Of a DNA stretch of 28,790 nucleotides, positions 1,951 through 28,344 are shown in pieces (the stretch's first letter is position 1; each line of letters starts with the position of its first letter). Source of the DNA: a virus; the IMG/VR virus record IMGVR_UViG_3300032286_000619, positions 1 to 28,790 of that record, one strand, 5' to 3'. The translations under genes were made by a program, and so were the position numbers. The notes beneath the pieces were generated by a model, which saw nothing but the letters and a program-made list of their open reading frames with translations, had not been told where the DNA came from and searched no databases.

Positions 1951-2973
1951 ATGTCTTTGTCAGAAAAAACAAAATCTTATCTTAAGTACGCTCTTGCTAG
2001 TCAAGACGTGGCCGACGAAGTAATTCTCTATCTTGAAACAGACCCCGACTCCGACGTTGCTCTGGCTGCTCACGTAGCTGCGCCAGACGCACATCCTCAG
2101 TATCTTAAAAAAGGCTCGGTTATTTGGTGCCTACCCGGCGGTGAATATGCAACATTGCAGGCAGCCATCGACGCTGCTTCCGCTGGTCAGGTTATTTTGC
2201 TAGGAGAAGGCGCGTGGGGTAATGCGACTCTTAAGGCTGGCGTTAATATTGTTGGCTTAAATTCTCCAAGAAATGTCACCGTATCTGTTGGTCAGCTCAG
2301 CTTTGCCCCCACAACAGGGGGAGCCGTAGATAATCAAATCTTTTTATCAAATCTTTTTATTAACGGTTCCTCTACAGCTAGTGGCGTTTCTCTTGGCGGA
2401 ACAGCGCCAGTTCGTTTAAGCTTAAGTGGCTGCTATCTATTTAAGGGTTCGGGCACGTCTAGTCTTATTAGCCTAACCAATACAGACGCTACCGCAACCA
2501 CTGTCAGAATGGACGGTTGCATTGTAAATTCAAGTGGCTCAGACGGAACACTTGTTACAACTAATGCACGATATCTTAGAATCACCAACTCTGAGTTATT
2601 TGGCGCAGAGAAAGCTTTGGTGGCCAACGGCGGCTTAATTCAAATAGCTTTTTCAAGTATTGAGACCAATTCTGCTGCAGAAATCATTCAGGTTGCTGCC
2701 GGAACAGTAGAATCCACAAGTTCTTCCTTAATCCGCAACCTAACTGCAGGCGGCAGCGGAGTTTCTGTTGCTGCTGGCGGAGTTTTTTTTGTAACAACCT
2801 TAACTTTATTTGATGTTGCTGCGGGAGCGGGGTACTGTGTTAGGGGTGCTGGCTCTGTAATTTATGATGTTGTTTCTTTTAATCATATTCCGGTTTTACA
2901 GCCAAGAAATACTAAATTTCAAAACACTTTAACGGTAGTTCAACTACCAACAACTCCAACCTCTGCTCCATGA
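1951..2973 (+). CDS. Right-handed beta-helix (pectate-lyase-like) phage fibre or tailspike
   Basis: 340 residues, with AAAGGA ahead of the ATG. The N-terminal about 50 residues are helical and end in an HPQYL motif often seen near the start of phage fibres. The motif EYATLQAAIDAASAG then opens repeated short beta turns with regularly spaced S/N/G and hydrophobic residues (LFINGSS, LSLSGCYLF, VRMDGCIV, LRITNSELF), as in pectate-lyase-fold tailspikes. Such proteins bind or cut host polysaccharide. No catalytic pair can be assigned, so binding is as likely as hydrolysis. Its stop overlaps the start of the HNH gene (ATGA), so the endonuclease is co-transcribed. Confidence 0.75.
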   Translation: MSLSEKTKSYLKYALASQDVADEVILYLETDPDSDVALAAHVAAPDAHPQYLKKGSVIWCLPGGEYATLQAAIDAASAGQVILLGEGAWGNATLKAGVNIVGLNSPRNVTVSVGQLSFAPTTGGAVDNQIFLSNLFINGSSTASGVSLGGTAPVRLSLSGCYLFKGSGTSSLISLTNTDATATTVRMDGCIVNSSGSDGTLVTTNARYLRITNSELFGAEKALVANGGLIQIAFSSIETNSAAEIIQVAAGTVESTSSSLIRNLTAGGSGVSVAAGGVFFVTTLTLFDVAAGAGYCVRGAGSVIYDVVSFNHIPVLQPRNTKFQNTLTVVQLPTTPTSAP

Positions 2974-3305
2974 TTATTAGCCACGTAAAGGACGTAGTTA
3001 AGGGAAAAGCCAAGCTTTTTTCTAGGCGTTCGTCTAAGTGGCCGTCATTACGGAAGTCTTTTTTGGAAACTCACGGTTCTTGTGCAGCTTGCGGCTGCAC
3101 GGAACACCTCGAAGTTCACCATATAGAGCCATTCCACGAAAACCCTTCTTTAGAGCTAGACTCTAATAATCTCATAACGCTATGCGACAAGCCTGGTAAA
3201 GATAATTGTCACCTAGAGATTGGCCACCTTGGTAGCTTCAAGAAGAAGAACCCCAACGTCCGAGAAGAAGCATCTAAAGCTCTCATAGAAAAAACTAAAG
3301 AATAG
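2970..3305 (+). CDS. HNH endonuclease
   Basis: 111 residues. A compact HNH fold is visible: CAACG supplies the first zinc-binding Cys pair, LEVHHIEPF holds the catalytic His pair, and NLITLCD holds the asparagine with a further Cys, followed by NCH. The N-terminus is basic, as expected for DNA binding. HNH proteins of this size in phages are homing endonucleases or packaging-associated nucleases. This one starts inside the stop of a fibre gene and is far from any recognised terminase, so a free-standing homing-type nuclease is more likely, though a packaging role cannot be excluded. Confidence 0.88.
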   Translation: MIISHVKDVVKGKAKLFSRRSSKWPSLRKSFLETHGSCAACGCTEHLEVHHIEPFHENPSLELDSNNLITLCDKPGKDNCHLEIGHLGSFKKKNPNVREEASKALIEKTKE

Positions 3306-20473: not shown

Positions 20474-20659
20474 ATGAAACAAAACCTTATGTTACTTTTT
20501 TGTGTTGCCATTCTGTTGGTGACACTTTCTTACGTTACTAGAACTTTGCTTGACTTTCAGAAGATAACCACTCAAGTTCATTGCGAGCAGAGCACCGACT
20601 TTGTTAAATGTTCTCAAGAGTTTAAAGAAAAAACATCTAAACTAATGAAGGAACTCTGA
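20474..20659 (+). CDS. Small signal-anchored protein
   Basis: 61 residues: short positive N-terminus, one membrane helix (LMLLFCVAILLVTLSYV), then a soluble tail with two Cys (HCEQSTDFVKCSQEF) and basic helix, probably periplasmic. Lies 3 bases after the exported Cys-rich gene and overlaps the start of the deoxyhypusine-synthase-like gene. The layout resembles Rz1/spanin-like subunits only superficially; no evidence for that identity. Confidence 0.55.
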   Translation: MKQNLMLLFCVAILLVTLSYVTRTLLDFQKITTQVHCEQSTDFVKCSQEFKEKTSKLMKEL

Positions 20660-21618
20660 TGCAACTATCTGAATTTCTTGAAAAACACTTTAAGCATTTT
20701 AATGCAAGAGAAACACTGGCTGCTGCTAAAGCATATAAAGCACACGTTGAGTCTGGCAATTTAATGATGGTTACCTTGGCAGGAGCTATGTCTACTGCAG
20801 AATTAGGCATTATCTTGGCTGAAATGATTCGTCAAGACAAAGTCCATGCCATCACTTGCACAGGAGCCAACCTCGAAGAGAGTCTCTATAACTTAGTTGC
20901 TTACGACCACTACAAAGTTATTCCCAACTATAGAGACTTGACTCCTAAAGAAGAAGAAGAGCTTTTAAACCAACACCTCAATAGAGTTACAGATACTTGT
21001 ATCCCAGAAGACGAAGCCATTAGGCTTATTGAGGTTCACTTGTTTGAAGAATGGAAGAAGCTTAATGACGCAGGCAGTTCAGCTTTTCCCCACCAGATTA
21101 CATACAACGTAATCCGCAGCGGTAAACTCAAACCACAGTCAGACCCTAAAGACTCGTGGCTTGTAGCTGCCTGTGAAAAAAACTTGCCCATTTATGTTCC
21201 TGGATGGGAAGACTCTACCTGTGGCAATATCTTCGCGTCTTACTGCATGACGGGCGAACTGTCTCCTAAGTGCGTTAAGGGTGGGATTGAGTATATGATG
21301 GATTTAGCTAGTTGGTATCAAAAAGTTACCAAAGACAAGACCGTAGGTTTCTTTCAGGTAGGCGGTGGTATTGCTGGAGACTTTCCTATTTGCGTAGTAC
21401 CAATGCTTCATCAAGATATGGGCATGAGCGGAGTTCCATTGTGGGGCTACTTCTGCCAGATAGGTGACTCGACGACTTCTTATGGAAGTTACTCAGGAGC
21501 TGTTCCTAACGAGAAGATTACTTGGGGTAAGTTGTCAAGAGAAACGCCCAAGTTCATGATTGAGTCGGACGCTACTATTGTTGCACCTTTAATTTGGGGA
21601 TACACTCTTGGATATTAA
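20659..21618 (+). CDS. Deoxyhypusine synthase family protein (possible homospermidine synthase-like)
   Basis: 319 residues, typical family length. Deoxyhypusine synthases use NAD+ to cleave spermidine and move its aminobutyl group, via a lysine imine, to eIF5A; bacterial relatives have been linked to homospermidine formation. Motifs in order: LAGAMSTAELG at 40-50, CTGANLEES at 67-75 (as TTAGGVEED in eukaryotes), SWLVAACEKNLPIYVPGWED at 166-185 (as the P-x-x-T-D-G region), VGGGIAGDFP at 234-243 (the NAD-binding GGG), IGDSTTSYGSYSGA at 268-281 (as DGSDSGA), ITWGKL at 287-292 with K291 as the expected catalytic lysine, and ESDATIVAPL at 302-311. All key regions are intact, so it is probably active. 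No eIF5A or other polyamine gene is seen nearby. It ends a cassette of small envelope genes. Substrate uncertain. Confidence 0.88.
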   Translation: MQLSEFLEKHFKHFNARETLAAAKAYKAHVESGNLMMVTLAGAMSTAELGIILAEMIRQDKVHAITCTGANLEESLYNLVAYDHYKVIPNYRDLTPKEEEELLNQHLNRVTDTCIPEDEAIRLIEVHLFEEWKKLNDAGSSAFPHQITYNVIRSGKLKPQSDPKDSWLVAACEKNLPIYVPGWEDSTCGNIFASYCMTGELSPKCVKGGIEYMMDLASWYQKVTKDKTVGFFQVGGGIAGDFPICVVPMLHQDMGMSGVPLWGYFCQIGDSTTSYGSYSGAVPNEKITWGKLSRETPKFMIESDATIVAPLIWGYTLGY

Positions 21619-23505: not shown

Positions 23506-25428
23506 ATGTCTTACATCGGTAAAAAACCCTCGTTTAGTCAAGTACGTACAGCCGAATTGGTTGTGCAACGTGGGACCGACATTACTACAGCAGGAACCGT
23601 TGCGGCTCTTGATGTCAGTAACATAAGTCTTGTACGTCTTACGGCAGCTACGGTTCTTCAGGGACTTGTTGCCCCATCAGCACCTGCAAACAACGGTAAA
23701 AGAGTTACACTCGTTAACGCTAACTCTGTCAGCCTAGCCGTGGCCAACGAGTCTGGTTCTGCAACTGCAGCTAACCGCATTTCTACAGGCATCAGCCGTG
23801 ACCTCGTTATCACTGCTGGCGCATCTGTAACTCTTTTTTACAACACAGCTTCTTCACGTTGGTCTGTTGAGTCTTCTTCAAGCGAAATCAACATCGACCG
23901 CCTCCAAGTTGCTACAGAAGCAATCGTTCTTAACTCAGTAGACTTGGCTCCTACATCTTCTCCTAAGTCTGGCTTGATTGAGTTGACCGCTGGTTCACAG
24001 ACATCTATCCGCTCTATTTCTACTGGAGCTAACGGCCAATTCTTGGCAATTATCAATAAAACTGGCTCTTTGCTGCAGATTGCTAACGAAGACTCAGGAG
24101 CTACTCCTGCTGACCGTGTCGTAACTGGTACTGGCGGCCCTATCTCATTGCAAAGTAACGCTTCGTTGTTCTTGGCTTATTTGGGTTCTGCTTCAAGATG
24201 GCAAGTCGTTGGCGGAACAGGCAGCGGCGGTGGAGCAACTGAACAAGTCACTCAGACTGGCATTGGTAGCTTGGCTGTCGGTACTCCTTTGTATGTAGAC
24301 GCTTCTACAGGATGGACAGCAGCAAACGCTTCAGCAGCTAATACTGCAGAAGTAGCTGGTATGCTTGGAAGAAGTTTGAGTGCAAACTTGGCTGAAGTCG
24401 TTATGGCTGGTGAAGTCAGCGGTGTTGCTGCTGCTATATTTACTGAAGCTGTATTGCCTGCACGCGGCGAAGTTGTGTTCTTGTCAGCAACTTCTGGTAA
24501 GTTGACTATTACTGAACCAAGTGTAGTTGGCCAAGTCAGCAAGCCTTTGGGCGTAGTTCACAATGTTAACGGAAGTACATCCGTTGATATTATGTTCTTT
24601 AACTGGCGCGGTAGTGTAGTTGGTGGTGCAAATGCTCGCACGACTATTTCTTTGGCTAACAGCGCAACAACTTCTGTTCAGAGCGTAAGTGCTTATGACG
24701 CAGGCGAGTTGGCTGGATGGGTCTTTATTGACGCAACAACTGACCGTCGCTTTTATATTCAGGCACAGTTTGCTAAGAATGGCGCAGGAACAGATTTCAA
24801 TATCTCGTATCAAACAACTGGTGATACGCCCCCTGCCGGATTTAGCATGACCGTTACTAGCGCTGGTATGATTCAGGTAACATTACCAAGTGTTGCAGGG
24901 TTTAGCTCTGCTACTATTAACTACGCCCTGAATGCCCCGGCTGTCGGCGCGTCATTACCGTTGCAGATTAACGGTTCAAGCGTAACTGGGCCGATTCTCG
25001 CAGCAGCAACAGGTACGGCTATTAGTGCGGGATATGTTGGCGAAGTTATTTCGGCAGAATCTAATTCATTTACCACAACTGGATTAGTAAATAATAGTAC
25101 GACCGGATTCCTTTCTATAACGCTGACACCAGGAACATGGTTGATAAGCGCAGGTCAATCATTCTTACAGAATTCATCTACCGGAACAGCGGCCGGTTCT
25201 GTATTATCAGATGTTTCTGCTTCTGGAAACACAGTCACTGGGATTGGCGCTAGCGTAGTAGATATAGGAACGTGGCCCTCAAACAACGTTAGTCAGTTTA
25301 CTGTTACGCATCCATCATTTGTTTACTCAACGGCAACTTCTAAAACAATTTATCTTAATAACTATATGCTTTTTTCTGCCGGCACACCTTCTAGAAGAGG
25401 CTCAATCCGCGCAGTACGAATAAACTAA
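23506..25428 (+). CDS. Phage fibre/tail-associated protein with repeated beta modules
   Basis: 640 residues; AAAGGA before the ATG. N-terminus MSYIGKKPSF is a common phage fibre opening (attachment to the virion). Residues about 28-123 and about 140-237 are two copies of one beta module (LxxPSAPANNGKRVTLVN... / ...GANGQFLAIINKTG...), each ending in SRW-x-V. A central beta region (about 245-370) resembles surface-stalk domains, and the last about 130 residues form a receptor-binding-like beta sandwich (TGFLSITLTPGTWLISAG, TATSKTIYLNNYMLF). No enzyme motif. A small hairpin follows, then the next fibre gene. Confidence 0.75.
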   Translation: MSYIGKKPSFSQVRTAELVVQRGTDITTAGTVAALDVSNISLVRLTAATVLQGLVAPSAPANNGKRVTLVNANSVSLAVANESGSATAANRISTGISRDLVITAGASVTLFYNTASSRWSVESSSSEINIDRLQVATEAIVLNSVDLAPTSSPKSGLIELTAGSQTSIRSISTGANGQFLAIINKTGSLLQIANEDSGATPADRVVTGTGGPISLQSNASLFLAYLGSASRWQVVGGTGSGGGATEQVTQTGIGSLAVGTPLYVDASTGWTAANASAANTAEVAGMLGRSLSANLAEVVMAGEVSGVAAAIFTEAVLPARGEVVFLSATSGKLTITEPSVVGQVSKPLGVVHNVNGSTSVDIMFFNWRGSVVGGANARTTISLANSATTSVQSVSAYDAGELAGWVFIDATTDRRFYIQAQFAKNGAGTDFNISYQTTGDTPPAGFSMTVTSAGMIQVTLPSVAGFSSATINYALNAPAVGASLPLQINGSSVTGPILAAATGTAISAGYVGEVISAESNSFTTTGLVNNSTTGFLSITLTPGTWLISAGQSFLQNSSTGTAAGSVLSDVSASGNTVTGIGASVVDIGTWPSNNVSQFTVTHPSFVYSTATSKTIYLNNYMLFSAGTPSRRGSIRAVRIN

Positions 25429-25474: not shown

Positions 25475-26566
25475 ATGGCAAAGCAAGCGAAGAGACACAT
25501 GGACCTGGACGTCCAAGGCGACTTGGTGACGAGCAACTCGTTGATGTTCAGGAACCGGATTATCAACGGTGACATGCGGATTGACCAGAGAAACAGTGGC
25601 GCGAGTGTTACTCCTGTAGATGGACAGTACACACTTGATAGATGGTTCTTTGCTATGACTCAGGCTAGCAAATTCACGTCTCAGCAAAATCAAGGTAGCG
25701 TAACACCTCCAAGCGGCTATACAAAGTATTTGGGAGTAACGTCATCTTCAGCATACTCAGTTGCTGCTGGAGATATTTTTCGGTTAACTCACGCTATTGA
25801 AGGATTTAACGTAGCGGACCTTGGATGGGGTACAGCCGATGCAAAGGCTGTTACTATTTCATTCTGGATTCGTAGCTCTTTGACCGGAACTTTTGGTGGG
25901 TCTCTTATTAACAGCGCCGCTAATAGGTCATATCCTTTTACTTATATTATATCTTCTGCAAATACATGGGAACAAAAAACCATCACCGTCGCGGGAGATA
26001 CTACTGGTACTTGGTTAAGTAATAATGGTGTAGGCATTCGTATTAACTTTGGCCTTGGAGTTGGTTCGACCTTTAGCGGAACAGCTGGTGCATGGGCTGC
26101 GGGTAACTTTACCTCAGCAACTGGTAGCCAGTCCGTAGTCGGCACAAACGGCGCGACCTTCTACCTCACAGGCGTACAACTCGAAGTCGGCTCCAAGGCC
26201 AGCGCGTTCGAGAGAAGGCCGTATGGGATGGAGCTGGACCTGTGTGAGTACTATTACCAGGTTGTTGATTGTAATGGCGGCGCAGTTAATCTCTATCCAA
26301 ACACATCAATTGGGTATTTTCAACTTCCATATAAAACCATGAGAGCAATCCCTTCAGGGGCTGGAGGGGTAGTTTTTGATGCATCAATTACTAATGGTGG
26401 GTCTATTTATTGGAACGCAGTTAATGGAGTTTGTACTTATAATATAAATGCTCCGGCATCTCGTAATTCAATATCTGCATCACTTACCAGAACTGCAGGA
26501 ACGTTTGGTGCCGGAGAAGTATGTGGACATACATATGTTCGCTTGAGGTTGTCCGCAGAACTCTAA
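25475..26566 (+). CDS. Phage tail fibre / receptor-binding protein with mosaic composition
   Basis: 363 residues. Starts MAKQAKRHMDLDVQGD, then FRNRIINGDMRIDQRNSG and YTLDRWF, a widespread phage fibre opening. A jelly-roll-like carbohydrate-binding core follows (about 60-245, TISFWIRSSLTGTFGG, WEQKTITVAGDTTGTW), then the conserved VQLEVGSKASAFERRPYGME and LCEYYYQ, then a variable C-terminal tip (about 260-363). The first about 100 bases and 26140-26245 are GC-rich (about 60%), while the core and tip are AT-rich. This suggests that conserved blocks flank exchangeable receptor-binding parts. The role is a family-based inference. Confidence 0.8.
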   Translation: MAKQAKRHMDLDVQGDLVTSNSLMFRNRIINGDMRIDQRNSGASVTPVDGQYTLDRWFFAMTQASKFTSQQNQGSVTPPSGYTKYLGVTSSSAYSVAAGDIFRLTHAIEGFNVADLGWGTADAKAVTISFWIRSSLTGTFGGSLINSAANRSYPFTYIISSANTWEQKTITVAGDTTGTWLSNNGVGIRINFGLGVGSTFSGTAGAWAAGNFTSATGSQSVVGTNGATFYLTGVQLEVGSKASAFERRPYGMELDLCEYYYQVVDCNGGAVNLYPNTSIGYFQLPYKTMRAIPSGAGGVVFDASITNGGSIYWNAVNGVCTYNINAPASRNSISASLTRTAGTFGAGEVCGHTYVRLRLSAEL

Positions 26567-26570
26567 TCAA

Positions 26571-26866
26571 GTCCTGCCCGGGCCTAGCCGGGAATCTGGC
26601 GGGGGGTCTTCGGACTGAGAGTCCTTGACCCAGCGGTCTCGGCAGGAAGCCTCGACCGGGGACTGCTGGGGATTGCACGACAGGCCGAGTGCTGCTAGGA
26701 TGGTACGACTGAGAGATAGTATAACACGCGACGACCGAAGGGAAGTCGCCTTGAATGGATGAACGACTAAAAGGAGTGAAGGAATGAAACAAGCAAAAAG
26801 ACAACTGGCGGGAAGTGGAGAGGCGCTGCCGGCAGTTTGACTTTTGCTTGTTAACCTACTCCCTTT
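26571..26866 (+). ncRNA. GC-rich putative structured RNA
   Basis: No convincing protein fits. 26581-26700 is 67% GC by direct count, far above its surroundings. Helices: TCCTGCC/GGCAGGA (26572-26578 with 26641-26647) enclosing GGGTC/GACCC (26604-26608 with 26627-26631) and GGACT/AGTCC (26612-26616 with 26620-26624); GCAC/GTGC (26675-26678 with 26689-26692); GCGAC/GTCGC (26728-26732 with 26745-26749); and CAAGCAAAA/TTTTGCTTG plus AACTG/CAGTT (26790-26807 with 26833-26850). AAAGGAGT (26770-26777) could pair with ACTCCCTTT (26858-26866) if one C bulges. A terminator follows at 26881. It matches no RNA family I recognise. It may be a fibre-operon 3' RNA, a regulatory RNA or a decayed gene. Confidence 0.45.
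26784..26840 (+). pseudogene. Remnant or duplicate fibre-gene start (18 codons)
   Basis: ATG after AAGGA, encoding MKQAKRQLAGSGEALPAV then a stop. The first eight residues match MAKQAKRHM at the start of the fibre gene at 25475, and the DNA is also similar (both have AAGGAAT just before). It looks like a truncated copy of that N-terminus; it could instead be a translated leader peptide lying within the large hairpin. Confidence 0.45.
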
Positions 26867-26880
26867 AATTCTCAACACTA

Positions 26881-26910
26881 AGCCAGTAGACAAAACTACT
26901 GGCTTTTTGT
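26881..26910 (+). terminator. Rho-independent terminator
   Basis: AGCCAGTAG (26881-26889), loop ACAAAA, CTACTGGCT (26896-26904), then TTTTGTT: a perfect 9-bp stem with a U-rich tail. It ends the fibre/structured-RNA transcript. Confidence 0.9.
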
Positions 26911-26916
26911 TATAAT
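26887..26916 (+). promoter_or_regulatory. Promoter embedded in the terminator, giving a near-leaderless mRNA
   Basis: TAGACA (26887-26892), 18 bases, and a perfect TATAAT (26911-26916) with TGT before it. The ATG of the endonuclease begins 6 bases after the -10, so transcription would start at or beside the start codon. No ribosome-binding site is present. Confidence 0.6.
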
Positions 26917-26922
26917 AAAAGT

Positions 26923-27780
26923 ATGGAAAACTATTACGGAATAATCTACTGCGCAATTAATCTTATAAACAAAAAAGTTTATATTGGTCAAACTACTAAA
27001 TCGCTTGGTTATAGAAAATCTACTCACATTAGAGACTCAAGGAACAAAAAACCACAATGTAGAAAGTTTCATTTTGCTATACAAAAGTATGGCCATGAAA
27101 ACTTTGAATGGACAGTCATAGCTACTTGCTCTTCCCAAGAAGAATTAAACACTAAAGAAATTGAGTTTATTTCTATCTATAAAGCAACTGAGGATAAATT
27201 TGGCTATAACTTAGCTCAAGGCGGAAAGTCTGGCGGAAGACTTTCAGAAGAAACTAAAAAAATCCTCTCCGAAAAAAGCCGCGGAGAAAAATCTGTTTGG
27301 TTTGGAAGAAAACACACAGAAGAAACAAAAGCAAAAATCTCCCTAGCTCAAAAGGGCAAAGCAGGCAAGCCACACACAGAAGCATCTAAAGAAAAACTTA
27401 GACAAAGAATGATGGGCAACTCAATCTCTGAAGAAGCTAGAGCAAAGATTTCGGCCAAAAAAACAGGCTTTAAGCACAGCCAGTCCAGTAAAGAGAAGAT
27501 GTCAATAGAAAGAAAGAAGAGCTATCTTAATCCAGAATATCAGCAAAAGATGAAAGAGTTAGCAGTTAAGCGCGGACAAGATATTGAAATGAGAAAGAAA
27601 ATAGCAGAAGCAAAGGGAGCAAAGCCTTTTGCCGTTTATAAAGATGGTGTGTTGATTAAAGAGTTTTTTAGCATCCATGGAGCTGCGACTGAACTGAGCT
27701 TAAGCTGCGCAGGCATTCGTAAAGTTCTAAAGCAAAAAGCCAAAGCATGTCGTGGTTATGTTTTTGCCTACATAAGTTAA
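26923..27780 (+). CDS. GIY-YIG homing endonuclease with NUMOD3 and NUMOD1 repeats
   Basis: 285 residues. The N-terminal GIY-YIG nuclease domain shows GIIYCAINLINKKVYIGQT (residues 6-24, the GIY/YIG pair), a conserved basic helix with RKSTHIRD, and a later NTKEIEFISIY holding the catalytic Glu. Then come about four NUMOD3 DNA-binding repeats (SEETKKILSEKSRGE, FGRKHTEETKAKIS, GKPHTEASKEKLRQ, ISEEARAKIS) and a C-terminal NUMOD1 (KPFAVYKDGVLIKEF, ELSLSCAGIRKVLK, GYVFAY). This is the layout of SegA-like and I-TevI-like mobile nucleases. It is free-standing between fibre genes with its own promoter; no intron boundaries are visible. It probably moved itself and linked fibre DNA between phages. Confidence 0.93.
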   Translation: MENYYGIIYCAINLINKKVYIGQTTKSLGYRKSTHIRDSRNKKPQCRKFHFAIQKYGHENFEWTVIATCSSQEELNTKEIEFISIYKATEDKFGYNLAQGGKSGGRLSEETKKILSEKSRGEKSVWFGRKHTEETKAKISLAQKGKAGKPHTEASKEKLRQRMMGNSISEEARAKISAKKTGFKHSQSSKEKMSIERKKSYLNPEYQQKMKELAVKRGQDIEMRKKIAEAKGAKPFAVYKDGVLIKEFFSIHGAATELSLSCAGIRKVLKQKAKACRGYVFAYIS

Positions 27781-28322: not shown

Positions 28323-28344
28323 TAATATAAAAGGAGTATGAGAT

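Follow-up and report, generated by a model that had tools for sequence, protein, structure and literature searches.

The locus considered here raises the question of what a GC-rich segment without an evident gene is doing in the structural region of an AT-rich phage, and in particular whether it represents a new structured RNA or untranslated DNA brought in with a fibre gene. The window, i.e., the whole stretch of DNA that was analysed, comprises the 28,790 nucleotides of the IMG/VR record IMGVR_UViG_3300032286_000619, and the segment occupies the region around 26571-26866 (Table 1).

Composition of the segment and its place in the fibre locus

The GC-rich core described in the initial annotation was recovered in the present analysis: the GC content amounts to 67.7 % at 26571-26700 versus 42.4 % for the whole contig and to 61.0 % at 26567-26766. 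With window sizes of 100 and 130 bases the GC maximum of the contig falls in the 26571-26700 region, and with a size of 200 bases it starts at 26551; the next most GC-rich 200 bases, from 26052, lie inside fibre gene 2. The reported placement of the segment between a fibre gene (stop codon at 26564-26566) and a homing endonuclease gene was borne out as well, as was the absence of a sensible open reading frame: stops interrupt the sense frames, and for the antisense ORFs, of 129 and 106 aa, no match was obtained.

The family of fibre gene 2 is widespread, with related sequence in 310 IMG/VR contigs. Full-length relatives of the gene stop at the same ...(S)AE(L/F)*, after which the next gene begins at once. 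A degenerate fibre C-terminus could thus be ruled out and, since the relatives end at the same place, the segment is no lost part of the fibre gene. A search with the portal protein yielded ten IMG/VR records with portals that are 87-98 % identical. One near relative, G006 (162.7 kb; portal 90 % identical), carries a paralogue of fibre 1 (80 % identical in the first 243 residues) followed by a homologue of fibre 3, with a listed gap of 49 bases between the two and 64 bases before the homologous ATG; fibre 2, the segment, and the endonuclease are missing. As G006 joins fibres 1 and 3 directly, these three elements are extra DNA in the window. The extra DNA amounts to 2.4 kb, the exact ends of which are not fixable because the fibre region differs strongly among relatives. 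Fibre 2, the endonuclease, and the segment were absent from all ten portal-sharing records, several of which are fragments and may miss the locus, and no counterpart GC-rich non-coding island was present in related phage loci. Fibre gene 2 is a recent acquisition and part of the cassette.

Fibre genes at 23506-25428 of the window, at L116:3872, and at L116:13330 have the N-terminus MS(Y/D)(I/V)GKKPSF.QVRT in common and differ in their C-terminal parts; the paralogues with this N-terminus are modular, and two copies are present in G006. The contig opens with a fibre-type ORF (3-719) that contains collagen-like G-X-X repeats (GIQGEPGIQGEPG...). The window also encodes, at 20659-21618, a full-length deoxyhypusine-synthase-like protein (Pfam DS, E=2.7e-41) without a PHROG match, which is 94 % identical in G006 and was found at 22 IMG/VR loci, on contigs of up to 464 kb and with 49-94 % identity. 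PMC9992855 reports virus-encoded polyamine enzymes, homospermidine producers among them, and the protein of the window may be one of these.

Table 1. Features in and around the GC-rich segment (positions in the window)
Feature	Position	Strand	Basis
Fibre gene 2, 363 aa, intact, C-terminus ...SAEL*	25475..26566	+	PHROG 4492 tail fiber, E=2.7e-47
GC-rich core, non-coding, orphan sequence	26567..26767	+	Composition, shuffle-level fold, no homologues
Local hairpin in core	26629..26670 (26627-26672 at widest)	+	About 18 pairs, -27.3 kcal/mol, z -3.3 (chosen after inspection)
Local hairpin GCGAC-GA-CC-GAAG-GG-AA-GUCGC	26728..26749 (26726-26751 at widest)	+	z -3.4 (chosen after inspection)
Imperfect inverted repeat / long hairpin, 101 bases	26768..26868	+	-38.1 kcal/mol, z -5.1, 0 of 200 shuffles
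18-codon stub ORF MKQAKRQLAGSGEALPAV	26784..26840	+	Ribosome-binding site at 26771-26776; start like that of fibre gene 2
Intrinsic-terminator-like hairpin, 10 pairs, then TTTGTT	26880..26912	+	z -7.4
Promoter-like site TAGACA-18-TATAAT, TG before second hexamer	26887..26916	+	11 of 12 consensus positions; a consensus match only, such sites in the region being no commoner than in shuffles
GIY-YIG homing endonuclease with NUMOD3 motifs, T4 Seg-like free-standing type	26923..27780	+	Pfam, PHROG

Folding of the core and signals downstream

The significance of folding was assessed by comparing folding energies with those of dinucleotide shuffles and was expressed as z-scores. The claim of at least six complementary helices survived in part: helices can be drawn and two local hairpins exceed chance, but taken in its entirety the core folds about as well as its shuffles. 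The energy of 26567-26768 is -75.6 kcal/mol, against -72.7 +/- 4.5 for the shuffles (z -0.65), 25 out of 100 of which were as good, and the fold of 26603-26751 has a z-score of -1.1. The value of -3.35 obtained for the whole stretch of 26560-26870, in which the inverted repeat is included, splits into -0.65 for the core and -5.1 for the inverted repeat. Moreover, the stem GGGUC/GACCC (26604-26608 with 26627-26631) and the hairpin at 26629-26670 are mutually exclusive because they share bases. The two core hairpins were chosen after inspection of the segment, by which their z-scores (about -3.3) are flattered; when the shuffles were given the same choice, one in 100 contained a 60-base window as good as the best one in the core. 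The hairpins are therefore suggestive of structure beyond chance, short of proof. Taken individually, they and the flanking inverted repeat do exceed chance; the tests that do not depend on homologues (the shuffle-level fold of the core and the lack of an Rfam match) weigh somewhat against the GC core being an organised RNA.

The inverted repeat is exceptional and the strongest structural feature of the region; with a GC content of 47 %, it lies outside the GC core. The alignment score of its arms (41) was reached by none of 1000 shuffles, it is listed as I1 in the repeat search, and the other strand of 26768-26868 folds with a z-score of -6.6, as expected for an inverted repeat. Its left arm is the same stretch as the gene start of the 18-codon ORF. 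In the predicted long hairpin, both the ribosome-binding site and the ATG of this ORF are buried, AAAGGAG pairing with CUCCCUUU at 26860-26867. The stub starts with MKQAKRQL and fibre gene 2 with MAKQAKRHMDL; the score of the DNA alignment of the two starts was reached by 3 of 1000 shuffles, and the differences are mostly in third codon positions. The N-terminus of the stub was absent from all related loci that were fetched. Judged from these similarities, the ORF may be what is left of a former fibre gene, or else a gene start that was duplicated.

A terminator had been placed at the very end of the element (26866), which could not be upheld. No U-run follows the inverted repeat ending at 26868, and a GC-containing hairpin (26880-26905) with a U-run behind it, as in intrinsic terminators, is located further on. 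The promoter-like site overlaps this terminator-like hairpin ahead of the endonuclease gene, and no such site was seen immediately upstream of the GC-rich segment. The terminator and the promoter-like site separate the segment from the endonuclease gene, which is therefore probably a transcription unit of its own.

The endonuclease has matches to GIY-YIG (E=2.4e-6) and NUMOD3 (9e-14) in Pfam and to homing endonuclease in PHROG (E=1.7e-38), and its closest annotated relatives carry the name Seg-like homing endonuclease; by its GIY-YIG domain, NUMOD motifs, and Seg-type relatives, it belongs to the Seg-type GIY-YIG enzymes. It is of the same type as the free-standing Seg-type endonucleases that are inserted between genes of T4-like phages, and the near relative is without the endonuclease and its neighbours. 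The GC-rich segment, by contrast, has no counterpart as a leader upstream of the three other GIY-YIG endonuclease genes examined (L082, L083, and L047). At L047:3447-4789, this fibre family is again paired with a homing endonuclease: a relative of fibre gene 2 is immediately preceded there by a GIY-YIG endonuclease (29 % identical). A small HNH endonuclease ORF (Pfam HNH, E=1.9e-5) at 2970-3305 of the window, among structural genes, is a second probable homing endonuclease of the contig.

Searches for relatives of the segment

The earlier statement that the segment belongs to no known family agrees with the complete lack of Rfam 15 matches at gathering score across the whole window. At permissive thresholds (E up to 10) only chance matches appeared (snoR16, MicC, SMCR2, and S15-Halobacteria). 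A search for DNA similarity in distant mode among 50,697 phage records gave nothing at E<=1, and one among 72,556 plasmids gave nothing at E<=1 and, at E<=10, no more than short pieces at chance level. Exact patterns taken from two parts of the core had no match in IMG/VR, and no homologue of the segment was found with nhmmer and blastn in 139 fetched loci, by pattern searches of GTDB genomes, or at the same locus in near-relative phages. The pattern searches of IMG/VR and GTDB detect close relatives only, and distant ones may exist. A covariance model of the core hairpins, applied to 41 sources and 28 virus records, recovered the window itself only, with the next match at E=2.3.

Origin and possible function of the segment

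Untranslated spacer DNA of foreign origin is the most probable identity of the segment, ahead of a new RNA. The fuller reading, by which the segment is a foreign untranslated spacer as well as the 3' untranslated tail of the fibre-2 transcript, with a gene-start stub and within a mosaic fibre locus, has about an even chance of being correct. A spacer of foreign composition would have been carried in the 2.4 kb of extra DNA together with fibre gene 2 and the free-standing GIY-YIG homing endonuclease. Ribosomes would stop at 26566 and the RNA would continue first across the GC-rich core and then across the long inverted repeat; the fibre-2 transcript would end at the terminator, after which the endonuclease gene would start from its own promoter. 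A 3' untranslated tail is the commonest mechanism for an arrangement of this kind; if the segment has a function, it would be that of such a tail of the fibre-gene-2 transcript. When paired in the RNA, the inverted repeat would keep the stub, with its ribosome-binding site, ATG, and KQAKR, silent, and the long hairpin may serve either to protect the 3' end or to silence the stub. The stub itself would be the remnant of an earlier fibre gene, and the core was presumably imported together with the fibre cassette. That the core is foreign is suggested by its composition and its absence from relatives only; no donor sequence was found.

The arrangement resembles the 3' untranslated hairpins with intrinsic terminators that follow late structural genes of phages, in that it is located directly behind a fibre gene and contains a long hairpin and a canonical terminator. 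It differs from them in the approximately 200 GC-rich bases that separate the stop codon from the hairpin and in the gene-start stub held by the hairpin. The two core hairpins, each stronger than its shuffles, speak against a plain spacer, of which they are not required.

These hairpins, the even stronger one downstream, and the combination of a GC island without an ORF with a terminator behind it would also fit a new structured non-coding RNA of approximately 300 bases, in which the long 3' hairpin would be joined to those of the core. This RNA would be either the terminal 3' part of the fibre transcript or a product processed from it, and would end at the terminator. Such an RNA is unlikely, as neither the core nor 26603-26751 folds clearly better than shuffled sequence, relatives are lacking both in Rfam and in the sequence and structure-model searches, and no promoter-like site directly precedes the segment. 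The more specific proposal that the hairpins of the core, together with the long one on their 3' side, are one discrete, undescribed phage RNA in a mobile fibre cassette, acting in trans or stabilising the fibre transcript, is decidedly doubtful, more so than either the general one or the mobile-element origin considered below.

The foreign composition, the lack of this DNA in the near relative, and the adjoining homing endonuclease could alternatively point to the decayed remnant of a mobile element, for instance part of a group I or group II intron or another insertion, of which one end was left beside the endonuclease that formerly moved it. Structured-looking DNA next to a homing endonuclease is indeed what such introns have in common with this locus, but no intron model was matched here. 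Intron_gpI of Rfam, with its conserved core of P3-P8 and P7, stayed unmatched both at gathering score and with E relaxed to 10, as did the models for group II domains I-IV at E up to 10; group II domain V (RF00029) was absent from the contig at E<=1, whereas control genomes did match. An apparent 12-base likeness to domain I of the Lactococcus group II intron Ll.LtrB was regarded as chance, no supporting match having followed. HEARO, the omega-RNA of IscB-type nucleases, had no Rfam match either, and the neighbouring ORF is of the GIY-YIG and not of the IscB/TnpB type. No gene is interrupted, fibre 2 ending at its natural C-terminus and no coding being resumed before the endonuclease; no reverse transcriptase or transposase was found alongside the segment, and the plasmid collection contained no similar DNA. 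A mobile-element remnant is thus somewhat less likely still than a structured RNA.

It is improbable that the segment is a regulatory leader in which the core and the arm complementary to the ribosome-binding site control translation of the small peptide of the 18-codon ORF. This ORF does have a good ribosome-binding site and ATG (26771-26786), which are much like the collar-gene leader at 28330, and pairing with the 3' arm is predicted; yet the masking arm is located after the ORF, the residues at the end of the peptide have no relative, the start looks copied from the fibre gene, and no homologue shows conservation. A decayed or undetected protein-coding gene, e.g., in the 129-codon open frame of the minus strand, is very improbable, since that frame runs antisense through the terminator and the inverted repeat, the open antisense frames have no family in Pfam or PHROG, and translated six-pattern searches of IMG/VR and GTDB, which can detect near relatives only, returned none for the antisense frame or for the sense frame with TGA read through as W (a search device that implies no claim on the genetic code).

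An untranslated spacer that would form the tail of the fibre-2 transcript remains the preferred reading. The locus calls for caution, as a GC island in an AT-rich phage offers many plausible helices from composition alone, and a real RNA can be told apart from these only by shuffling and by homologues. Were it a genuine RNA, the segment would represent a new structured RNA linked to a swapping fibre cassette; with a homing endonuclease as its neighbour, one would then have to ask whether host-range modules take regulators of their own along when they move.
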